Of a stretch of DNA of 64,000 bases, positions 22,182 to 35,803 are shown one piece after another. Every line of letters starts with the position of its first letter. Within the stretch, counting starts at the first letter, position 1. The position numbers were made by a program, and so were the translations under genes. Below the pieces are notes generated by a model, which was not told the DNA's origin, searched no databases, and was given only the letters and a program-made list of their open reading frames with translations. This DNA is from Variovorax guangxiensis (GTDB lineage Bacteria > Pseudomonadota > Gammaproteobacteria > Burkholderiales > Burkholderiaceae_C): the NCBI RefSeq assembly GCF_003952165.1, contig NZ_RXFT01000004.1:186001-250000 (forward strand), read 5' to 3'.

Positions 22182-23546
22182 CTAGAAATTCCCGCTTCTC
22201 ATTCGAGCAACCTCGTCAACAACCAACTGCATCGGCAAGTCGAAGAAATCGAAAAGTGCATAGAGTGGGCGCAGCAATGGATGAATGATCTCTGGCAGAT
22301 TGGCTTCAATCGAGTGGGTTTCGACATGCGTTGAAAGCGTGATGGCATCTTGGTGAGCAACACGGCCTTCGCGAATATTGCGGCGACCTGTAACGCTTGC
22401 CAATGATCGACCGGATAGACCTGAGTAGTGGGCAACGAACCTGATCGTGGTCGGTCCGTCGAAAAGATTACCGGCAAGACTGCGTGCATGTAGCAACGTT
22501 TCGCCTATTCGCCATACAGGCAGAGTGACATCAAAGACAGTTGCAGGGGGGGCTGGCGCACGCCCTGTCCCTAGCACCTCCTCTCCATCCTCTTGGTATC
22601 CGCGCAGTAGGAATGCCAATCCGTCCGGATGAACTCGCCAAAAATCGGAGTGGGCGGCATCACGTTGTTCCACCGGTGTGTGCGGATCGCCACCCAACCA
22701 GCACTCAATTGTGTTATTGAACAAATAGGGCTCTATTCCAGCGCGCGTTGGGTACCAAAATGGAGGCCAACCTGTATGTCGAACAACACTGGCTCTGAGT
22801 ACCTCTGGCAGGTTCTCGATTGCAATCTGTCGGCTCTCTCCGGTTATTTCGTACGCCATGTAGAAGTAGCCATGTGGCATTCGGGGGGGAGCACCCGTGG
22901 GAATTCGCGCAATAAGGTTTGTCCATCGTTCGAGGCTCGACCCCACCCATTCATCAAGCCGTGCTGGAGCGGCGGGTTGCTCGACCTGTGGAACTACGCC
23001 GGTAATCAGATCCCTTATCTGATCGAACATCTCGTCACGCCGGTTTCGCAGGCAGCGATTCAGAAGGTCGTCCCAGTCTTGCGCACTTTGTGGTGTCTCA
23101 CTCCTCGGACCAGGTTTGCGGACATAGATCGCGTTGTTCGAGACGGTATTTCCATTCGGGCCAGCCCTCCTGGCGCGAATTGGCATTCGATGTCCTCCAG
23201 GAACAACGACTATGGGAAAGAGAGAGCCGACCGGGTTCGCGATTAGGTGTACGGCGCAATGAAATGGTGGATCGGCGTAGTTGTGGACGATGCCGTTAAC
23301 TAGATCTTGCGAATAGCCGTCGAGCGTGGCAGGTCGCCCTTGTGCCTCTACGATGCCACCGGCAGTCTCGATGAGGCCTAAGACAATGAAACCCCCACCG
23401 TGATTCGCGAGGGCTAGCACAGCTTTCGCGAATGTCGCCTTATCTTCGTTCGAAGCCTGCAGGTCAAGCCAATTTTTTATCTCACAATCAAGATCTTCCC
23501 TAGGTTCAACCAAAAGGTCGGCGAGGCGTTCGCGTGAAGTTGCCAT
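22182..23546 (-). CDS. AlbA_2 (Schlafen-type) domain protein
   Basis: A 454-residue protein whose first 130 residues are an AlbA_2 putative nucleic-acid-binding domain: EIKNWLDL (Glu22, Lys24) and KATFAKAVLALANHGGGFIVLGL, where Asn48 and the GGG are characteristic. The remaining 320 residues are a mixed alpha/beta region that I do not recognise. The start is ATG 23546; a longer frame to 23807 has no supporting site. Base composition is clearly AT-richer than the surrounding chromosome, indicating acquisition. AlbA_2 proteins are frequent in genomic islands and in some anti-phage loci, but nothing here proves a defence role. Confidence 0.75.
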   Translation of the reverse strand: MATSRERLADLLVEPREDLDCEIKNWLDLQASNEDKATFAKAVLALANHGGGFIVLGLIETAGGIVEAQGRPATLDGYSQDLVNGIVHNYADPPFHCAVHLIANPVGSLFPIVVVPGGHRMPIRARRAGPNGNTVSNNAIYVRKPGPRSETPQSAQDWDDLLNRCLRNRRDEMFDQIRDLITGVVPQVEQPAAPARLDEWVGSSLERWTNLIARIPTGAPPRMPHGYFYMAYEITGESRQIAIENLPEVLRASVVRHTGWPPFWYPTRAGIEPYLFNNTIECWLGGDPHTPVEQRDAAHSDFWRVHPDGLAFLLRGYQEDGEEVLGTGRAPAPPATVFDVTLPVWRIGETLLHARSLAGNLFDGPTTIRFVAHYSGLSGRSLASVTGRRNIREGRVAHQDAITLSTHVETHSIEANLPEIIHPLLRPLYALFDFFDLPMQLVVDEVARMRSGNF

Positions 23547-23793
23547 TGAGAAATGCCTGTTCAAAGAGAGTGTGAGGAGCCTCGTCAGGATATGACATCG
23601 CAGATTCAGATTGAAGTGAGTAAAGCCTCTCTCGTTGAAATACTTCATTTGCCTGCGGCGCGGTAGAAGCAAGGCTTCAGCGGCCTGCACATGGCTAGCT
23701 GTATCGCCGTTGCGCTTGGACGGTCGTGTCTTAGTTGACGTGGTTCGTCGATTTATCCATCGACTCAACAGCAATTGCATTGACCTCCCAAAC

Positions 23794-23823
23794 TTGACTG
23801 TTTCCATCGACAGCGCTTACATT
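23794..23823 (+). promoter_or_regulatory. Sigma-70 type promoter of the C4-like RNA
   Basis: TTGACT at 23794-23799 followed after 17-18 bases by TTACAT/TACATT at 23817-23823. It is one of the best promoter matches in the window and lies directly ahead of the structured RNA, with the expected start near 23829. Confidence 0.6.
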
Positions 23824-23828
23824 GCCCC

Positions 23829-23915
23829 CGCCTCGTGATGAGCGGGGCCGGGTTTGACAGCCCGCCGACATCCTGCGACGAGAGCCGCAGCCACCGCACT
23901 GGTCTGCGGCTTTTT
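23829..23915 (+). ncRNA. C4-type antisense RNA
   Basis: A compact structured element: an 8-bp hairpin (23826-23847, one bulge); a 4-bp stem CGGG/CCCG (23849-23864) presenting the 8-base loop TTTGACAG; a single-stranded CGACATCCTGCG; and an 11-bp terminator hairpin (AGCCGCAG/CTGCGGCT plus CCA/TGG) followed by TTTTT at 23911-23915. The loop and the single-stranded segment are both complementary to the downstream leader (CTGTCAA at 23990-23996 and AGGATGTC at 23977-23984). That is the layout of the C4 RNA of phages P1/P7 and the CI RNA of P4, which silence the ORF downstream on the same transcript. Assignment is by structure and complementarity, not by a database match. Confidence 0.7.
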
Positions 23916-23975
23916 CGTTTGCGCCTAATTTTTAGGCGGCTCGAACGGGAGGGCTCGCGCCCTGCCGGTTTCCGC

Positions 23976-24066
23976 AAGGATGTCCCGGTCTGTCAACCCG
24001 TTCGAGCTGCCGCCCTCGTTTGACAGCGGGTGCGTCGGTTTCTGCAAATCGACATCCTTGGGAGGC
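23976..24066 (+). promoter_or_regulatory. Switchable leader (C4 target) before the small ORF
   Basis: Segment B (AAGGATGTC at 23976-23984 and CTGTCAA at 23990-23996) can pair with the C4 RNA, or with a second copy of the C4 sequence just before the gene: TTGACAG at 24020-24026 and GACATCCTT at 24051-24059. The second copy abuts the ribosome site GGGAGG at 24060-24065. Segment B also contains the upstream in-frame ATG at 23980. The two pairings are mutually exclusive, so the leader can act as a switch. Confidence 0.65.
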
Positions 24067-24072
24067 CCACTC

Positions 24073-24432
24073 ATGGCCAATGCTTCTTCAAACGACGCGG
24101 CAAGCGCCGACGCTCGCTGCACTTGCACGCCTTATCGCCCCGACGCCCAGTTCAAGCCTTTCGAATGGGTTCAGGGCGACCGGCTCGGCGATTCTTCGCA
24201 ACAAAGCCAGGCCGCATTCCTCAACGATGCCCGCGACGTGGTGCAGGGCGCGCAGACGCTGGTGCAACTGCTCGGCTGGGACGAAGACCGGCGCGATGCC
24301 GCTTCGTCCGACGCAGACCCCGCGCCACTCTTCGATGCCTGCCATCGCAACTCGCTGCAGCGGCTGCTCTCGGCGACGCTGGGACTTCTTCATGCTCGGA
24401 TCGAAGTCCAGTGCGAGGCGCTGACGGGGTAG
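24073..24432 (+). CDS. Small protein under C4-like RNA control
   Basis: A 119-residue acidic helical protein. The ATG at 24073 follows a strong GGGAGG site. An in-frame ATG at 23980 would give a 150-residue form and lies inside the C4 target, so two products are possible; in phage P1 the C4-controlled icd and ant frames overlap in the same way. Features: CTCTPYRPDAQFKPFEWVQGD near the start, then two helices (FLNDARDVVQGAQTLVQLLGW and NSLQRLLSATLGLLHARIEV). No family is recognised; it faintly resembles the small DUF3077-type proteins of Pseudomonas in its helix layout. Confidence 0.65.
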   Translation: MANASSNDAASADARCTCTPYRPDAQFKPFEWVQGDRLGDSSQQSQAAFLNDARDVVQGAQTLVQLLGWDEDRRDAASSDADPAPLFDACHRNSLQRLLSATLGLLHARIEVQCEALTG

Positions 24433-35488: not shown

Positions 35489-35540
35489 GGGGCACTCCAA
35501 AGGGGCAGTCGAAATCCATGACGCAAGCCATGGGCCACCC

Positions 35541-35750
35541 CTGCTGTCCGCTTTACCTGAGAGATTCGCCCCACGATCGGGGTTTGCTCCTTCGGTGGGC
35601 CGCTGCTCCTGTTTTGGATGCGGCGGCCTCTCTCCAGCAAGGAAACGCCGGTTTTCACCGGCGCCTCGTCAGTCCTTTTGCCTGAGCGTTCGGGGGAAAT
35701 TTGCCCCCTGCGCCTTCGGCGGCCCCGGCTTGCGGGGCTCTCTCCTGACC
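35541..35750 (-). promoter_or_regulatory. Tandem glycine riboswitch upstream of gcvT
   Basis: Read on the minus strand, two glycine aptamers lie in series. The first is about 35750-35655, from GGTCAGGAGAGAG through the GCCGAAGG element to GCTCAGGCAAAAGGAC. The second is about 35643-35541, from CTTGCTGGAGAGAGG through CACCGAAGGAGCAA to ATCTCTCAGGTAAAGCGGAC. Both carry the conserved GGAGAGAG, CCGAAGG and CTCAGG-AAA elements. In this class the tandem switch turns gcv genes on when glycine is high. The promoter should lie in 35751-35803. Confidence 0.95.
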
Positions 35751-35803
35751 CCGGCGAGTGTAGTTGATCGAGCGGCCCGGCCGGCGGATATGCCTTGCCG
35801 CGC

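Follow-up and report, generated by a model that had tools for sequence, protein, structure and literature searches.

The C4 antisense RNA of phages P1 and P7 (RF01695; its a1,b1 target is RF03163) carries two short words, a' and b', which pair with targets on the same strand, the second target lying at a ribosome site. The 1990 work of Citron and Schuster is cited in the later C4 literature. The papers given below by PMC number were available as excerpts, and what is said of them refers to those excerpts. Both C4 and c4-a1b1 have been catalogued in Proteobacteria and in phages (PMC2864571), and processing of C4 from a longer transcript, with RNase P acting at the P1 stem, has been reported for phage and for Acinetobacter (PMC5320573). 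In the isrK-orf45-anrP region of the Salmonella prophage Gifsy-1 (RF01394), IsrK supplied in trans raises the translation of anrP 114-171 fold, and the immunity region of P4 has the order target, antisense, target in its elements seqA, CI and seqC (both PMC4825925). Acinetobacter baumannii AB5075 has 21 C4-like RNAs, of which the 15 full-length ones are expressed and apparently processed (PMC5320573), and in a genomic island of Burkholderia cenocepacia isrK and C4 form one transcription unit (PMC4603805). The excerpt of a Variovorax transcriptome paper presents no small-RNA data (PMC7494200); further literature is found in PMC12197685, PMC6337395 and PMC8201110. Among the matches listed in our literature search, whose scope left out most subscription literature and likewise the DUF3077 paper PMC9630843, we found no work on private codes of C4 copies or on the ORFs treated here as C4 targets.

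In this work we have analysed a stretch of 64,000 nucleotides of Variovorax guangxiensis, here called the window, which contains a unit that begins with a promoter-like site, followed by the a1/b1 copy and its terminator, by C4, by the a2/b2 copy and then by a ribosome site and an ORF. Its parts are as follows.

23794..23823, plus strand: predicted sigma-70-like promoter (TTGACT, 18 nt, TACATT), by consensus match
23829..23915, plus strand: predicted terminated a1/b1 RNA in the IsrK or seqA position, from sequence features, its start inferred from the promoter match
23853-23860, plus strand: a1 word TTTGACAG, at a hairpin loop
23866-23874, plus strand: b1 word CGACATCCT, read in the sequence
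23884-23915, plus strand: terminator, with a stem at 23884-23910 and then TTTTT
23929..24017, plus strand: predicted C4 antisense RNA, by RF01695 covariance match, with a long stem at 23935-24014
23976-23984, plus strand: b' word AAGGATGTC, inside C4 and complementary to the b words
23990-23996, plus strand: a' word CTGTCAA, inside C4 and complementary to the a words
24019..24057, plus strand: predicted a2/b2 target, with TTTGACAG at 24019-24026 and CGACATCC at 24050-24057, separated by 2 nt from the ribosome site
24060-24065, plus strand: Shine-Dalgarno GGGAGG, read in the sequence
24073..24432, plus strand: putatively controlled ORF of 119 aa, start ATG 24073, conserved and without family match

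The Rfam C4 covariance model, run against the 64-kb window, matched 23929-24017 on the plus strand with 58.7 bits (GA 45, E 9e-09) over its full length (model 1-87 of 87), and the a' and b' words are complementary to nearby targets on the same strand, as in the C4 class. By the covariance model the window unit is a C4 RNA, and its predicted layout is that of IsrK and c4-a1b1, in which a terminated RNA with the target words lies upstream of C4. That upstream stretch scored under the Rfam cutoffs of isrK (RF01394, 33/50 bits) and c4-a1b1 (RF03163, 32/46.7 bits), and the a1/b1 RNA is therefore not filed as a member of either family, although it is alike in position and layout. In the predicted folds a' is free of base pairs and b' falls within the P3 loop, where three of its bases belong to a small hairpin, and TTTGACAG of the a1/b1 RNA is at a hairpin loop. 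Between 23700 and 24500 there is a single promoter-like site, the one at 23794-23823 (shuffles, mean 0.1), and there are 2 terminator-like sites, the second inside the ORF, against a mean of 1.0 in shuffles; since this number is near chance, the case for the terminator behind a1/b1 is built on its position and its conservation by eye. The initial annotation had described a C4-type antisense switch ahead of a small ORF without known family and had proposed the Rfam C4 search as a check; the match bears this out, and on re-reading we found the features it had listed, namely the promoter-like site, the words, the complementary segment and the second copy by GGGAGG. It had also pointed to ATG 23980 as a possible start of a leader or alternative start of the ORF. 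This ATG is present and in frame and would give 150 aa, but it lies within the b' word of C4 and, in contrast to P1/P7, is not conserved, being kept in 19 of the 142 intact units described below, so that we reject it as a start and a P1-like leader ORF is not supported. Elsewhere in the window, the ORF at 22182-23807 on the minus strand, which adjoins the switch, has a weak Schlafen AlbA_2 match under the cutoff (E 0.00067), and two neighbouring glycine riboswitch aptamers over the Rfam cutoff lie at 35534-35757 on the minus strand. One other locus (L161) aligns with the window up to 22075 and resumes from 23774, so that the Schlafen-like ORF looks absent there.

How does this locus compare with the described systems? 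The Variovorax units share with C4 of P1/P7 a score above the C4 cutoff, the a' and b' words, the second target at the ribosome site and the common strand, but they are chromosomal, occur in many copies and precede a small ORF without family match. Like Gifsy-1 they are predicted to have a promoter, a short terminated RNA, a read-through RNA with a complementary segment and a downstream gene (PMC4825925); in Salmonella, however, this gene is a prophage antirepressor behind a leader ORF, whereas in Variovorax the small ORF itself adjoins the target, and the isrK score of the window is under the cutoff. The Variovorax unit shares with P4 the order of target, antisense and target (PMC4825925), although P4 acts by termination. 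With the Group 1 C4-like sRNAs of A. baumannii AB5075 the Variovorax unit has in common that chromosomal C4s are many and their a' loops variable (PMC5320573). The targets were left open in the excerpt on AB5075, whereas each intact Variovorax unit is flanked by two targets and includes an ORF, and the codes differ among the copies of one genome. The mechanism class of the window switch is ordinary; its number, its chromosomal setting and its private coding are unusual.

The window C4 is one of 8 over the cutoff in the source genome (7.18 Mb, 42 contigs; 8/8 listed copies), a multiplicity that goes beyond the initial annotation, and 7 of these 8 stand in intact units, which carry 7 distinct codes. 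At least one C4 was present in 47 of the 101 Variovorax genomes returned when up to 400 were requested, the source genome included, with up to 13 per genome, and the same search in 14 control genomes found none (0/14). Wider draws, again with the source genome included, had a match in 21/150 genomes of the family, 25/150 of the order and 18/274 of the class. The ORFs behind the layout at these loci are varied, and several resemble, to our eye, antirepressors of the Rha, BRO or KilA type. G344, a genome from a different family within the same order, carries 27 C4s. Two C4 units have tRNA genes within about 1 kb (L303, 215-301; L100, 1868-1939). Three Variovorax genomes (L007, L087 and L121) contain C4s with the a' core AGGCC, with no matching a2 and apparently ORF-less; L007 and L121 each have a further C4 in tandem behind it.

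Does each C4 act on the targets beside it? The loci of 41 of the 47 positive genomes were read, and a regular expression found 170 distinct C4s, while 7 of 197 Variovorax loci gave no match to it (L052, L071, L151, L264, L267, L275, L283) and three G137 loci stood outside the analysis. No a1 could be extracted for 15 of the 170 and 28 were not intact, which leaves 142 intact units in 41 genomes, a set selected for agreement by its definition (an ORF of at least 60 aa and agreeing a words). The 5-nt a' core took 7 forms among the 170 C4s. Its reverse complement was the a1 word in 151 of the 155 loci from which a1 could be extracted (28 on average and at most 46 in shuffles) and the a2 word in 157 of 170 (29 on average and at most 46); among 115 distinct switch sequences, a1 agreed in 111 and a2 in 108. 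We read the 4 a1 mismatches as 2 wrong sites taken by the regular expression, 1 that is one base off and 1 that is real (L263); of the 13 C4s without matching a2 some have an ORF and some do not. The longest complement of b' was 6.19 nt to its own b1 (155 loci; 3.77 shuffled) and 7.16 nt to its own b2 (170 loci; 4.42 shuffled), and the gap between the end of b2 and the ribosome site was 0-5 nt in 122 of the 129 measurable units among the 142. Such shuffling of words leaves the relatedness among loci in place; loci with a common flank but different codes indicate that the words change jointly, beyond relatedness. When pairing energies were calculated for the 18 genomes with at least 4 intact units, the C4 paired best with its own a1/b1 in 102 of 103 units, and in 98 of these 103 it paired best with its own a2/b2 (chance about 18), counts that are inflated because the units were preselected for agreement of the a words. 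The three-site covariation suggests that the C4s, most likely, target their own neighbours.

The copies within one genome differ in what we call the full code, that is, an a word together with the last 7 nt of b'. There are 56 distinct codes among the 142 Variovorax units, and no full code was common to two intact units of one genome in 284 within-genome pairs, against 7.73 shared codes expected at the identity-matched between-genome rate and 7.86 when codes were shuffled inside ORF clusters (P 0.0003), with the reservation that draft assemblies may collapse near-identical repeats and that the units L065, L077 and L078 are no more than about 450 nt away from a contig end. The 14 near-closed genomes (at most 3 contigs) gave no shared code in 52 pairs, where 1.17 would be expected (P 0.27). 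A flank of at least 100 bases is common to a unit in another genome for 99 of the 142 units, and of the 183 flank-sharing pairs 107 have the same a, 93 the same b and 58 the same both; as flank-sharing pairs differ in code, we conclude that many units occupy stable places on the chromosome at which the code is rewritten. One flank-sharing group contains two units of one genome. The 27 copies in G344 have 27 distinct codes, 20 read by script (2 of these shortened by eye) and 7 by eye, and the b word TTGATG recurs there in five copies, each time beside a different a word. An ORF of at least 60 aa was present in 24 copies, and none of the 79 ORF pairs at 70% identity or more has the same code. 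In 20 of these copies we counted 0 a x b collisions, where 0.8-0.9 were expected by shuffling (P about 0.4); with this set of words, the combinations of a and b are no more exclusive than chance would make them. Another genome, G320, has 12 copies, 10 of them fetched, from which 7 codes were readable; no two of these are alike, and both a1 and a2 were present in 7/7. An ORF of at least 60 aa, as picked, was present in just 5 of the 10. What the comparison of sequences demonstrates is the architecture, the three-way covariation and, in the sample, the absence of shared codes within a genome; from these we infer repression, processing, sponge action and selection for insulation. We read the window unit as lying within what appears to be an expanded, insulated set of C4/IsrK-type switches.

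With E up to 1 for Pfam, NCBIfam and PHROGs and up to 0.01 for the phage and plasmid collections, the 119-aa ORF of the window matched nothing; we rejected phages and plasmids as its home, since these collections gave no match and IMG/VR one of 19 residues. In the named genome collection its relatives stand at 27 loci, 26 in Variovorax and one in a MAG filed as Frankiales. The 35-unit cluster to which it belongs has a median dN/dS of 0.29 (352 between-genome pairs with dS under 1.2), a value that shows purifying selection as estimated from these alignments. A second Variovorax ORF family was compared with plasmids through one member, and no match was found. The window ORF was rejected as a DUF6124 or DUF3077 homologue (no Pfam match, hhalign probability 0.1), and we do not claim that it is related to the second Variovorax family (P 0.11) or that this family is related to DUF6124 or DUF3077 (probability 0.1). 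The best PDB match by sequence, about 27 residues of sirtuin-3 (E 0.022), was weak and, like a PADLOC methylase match (E 0.024), was taken as chance.

A pattern scan of viral contigs gave at least 120 stretches, of which 80 loci were read and 40 left unread, and among the matches listed a1 and a2 both match in 66/80. Ten ORFs, nine of them from viral loci, were scanned against Pfam, and four exceeded the cutoff, three as DUF6124 (L335, L363 and L369, behind C4) and one as DUF3077 (L351); some members of DUF6124 and DUF3077 seem to be C4-controlled. Small proteins similar by eye lie behind the viral C4s of L336, L338, L348, L355, L366, L387, L395 and L400, and other ORFs behind viral C4s resemble antirepressors by eye. 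In L401 an ORF that looks like an AntA/AntB antirepressor follows a C4 whose b' loop is long, as it typically is in the Variovorax units. The ORF of viral contig L381, which sits behind C4 and isrK matches that are both over the cutoff, resembles the window ORF (hhalign probability 93), and it alone, among the candidates compared, is a likely relative. The ORF of L220 is a look-alike by eye.

How might such a unit work? The single promoter would yield a short terminated a1/b1 RNA, and read-through of the terminator would give a longer RNA with the C4 element, the second target a2/b2 and the small ORF. C4 is probably cut out of the long RNA, as has been reported in phage P1, and it may pair through a' and b' with a2/b2 by the ribosome site and so turn the ORF off. 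The short a1/b1 RNA, having the same target words, would compete for C4, so that the ratio of terminated to read-through transcript would set how tightly the ORF is shut off. In Variovorax the cassette appears to have multiplied over the chromosome while its pairing words diverged at all three sites together, and copies of one genome are therefore predicted not to cross-regulate. We consider it likely that C4 keeps the ORF off via a2/b2, that the a1/b1 RNA competes with this and that the copies have diverged in code, with no cross-regulation predicted among them, which is the best explanation we can offer. In Salmonella, STnc1160, which we have taken for a C4-like RNA, strengthened growth arrest when it was co-expressed with IsrK (PMC4825925), and this does not agree with a simple sponge.

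Other explanations have to be weighed against repression at the ribosome site. The initial annotation had the roles the other way round, with the short terminated RNA as the antisense repressor and the middle segment as its target. The complementarity is indeed real and mutual, but the C4 model matches the middle segment, 23929-24017, and the terminated RNA has the same sense word as the ribosome-site copy and so cannot pair there. The RNA in this position also activates in Salmonella (PMC4825925), and it is highly improbable that the terminated RNA is the repressor; the antisense role had been given to the wrong member. Could C4 instead work mainly by transcription termination, pairing on nascent RNA with a1/b1 in the manner of seqA and with a2/b2 in that of seqC? 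The order of the elements is that of P4 seqA-CI-seqC (PMC4825925) and a terminator follows a1/b1, but the closeness of b2 to the ribosome site in 122 of 129 units points to translation, and the sole other terminator-like site lies inside the ORF, in a scan to which rho-dependent termination is invisible. On balance a P4-like termination mode seems unlikely to us.

Two further alternatives concern not the act of pairing but the reason for so many codes. One of two proposals made for the Acinetobacter C4s is immunity (PMC5320573), by which a chromosomal C4 would silence C4-controlled genes that arrive on phages or elements of matching code, many codes giving broad cover. It accords with this that both target sites match in most of the viral loci listed (the 66/80 above) and that, among the matches listed, the a word of 34 of 70 a2-verified viral loci is also used in Variovorax. 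However, no full code is common to these 70 viral loci, among the matches listed, and the 142 Variovorax units, and every intact unit retains its own target and ORF, which immunity would not need; we think it rather improbable that the codes serve this end. It is possible, though we doubt it, that the codes drift neutrally with compensation and that the codes of one genome differ because of age and sampling and not through selection for insulation. The near-closed genomes taken by themselves are not significant, and a and b assort independently in G344, as neutral drift would have it, but against it stand the 41 genomes together, with 0 shared codes where the identity-matched and within-cluster controls expect 7.7-7.9, and the 79 similar ORF pairs of G344, with no code in common.

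Whether chromosomal C4 families in general evolve a two-word a x b code that is selected for mutual insulation, each copy controlling its own small protein and the code being rewritten at all three sites of a fixed locus, appears to us an evenly balanced question. If this is true, these families are a natural set of orthogonal antisense regulators. Multi-copy chromosomal C4s have been on record since 2016, with their targets left open in the excerpts available, and covariation now supplies the most likely targets. Insulation between copies becomes directly testable, and for measurements of what gives an antisense pair its specificity the units provide dozens of natural RNA pairs, both matched and mismatched. 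The finding also points to a set of small switch-controlled proteins, which may include some of DUF6124 and DUF3077.
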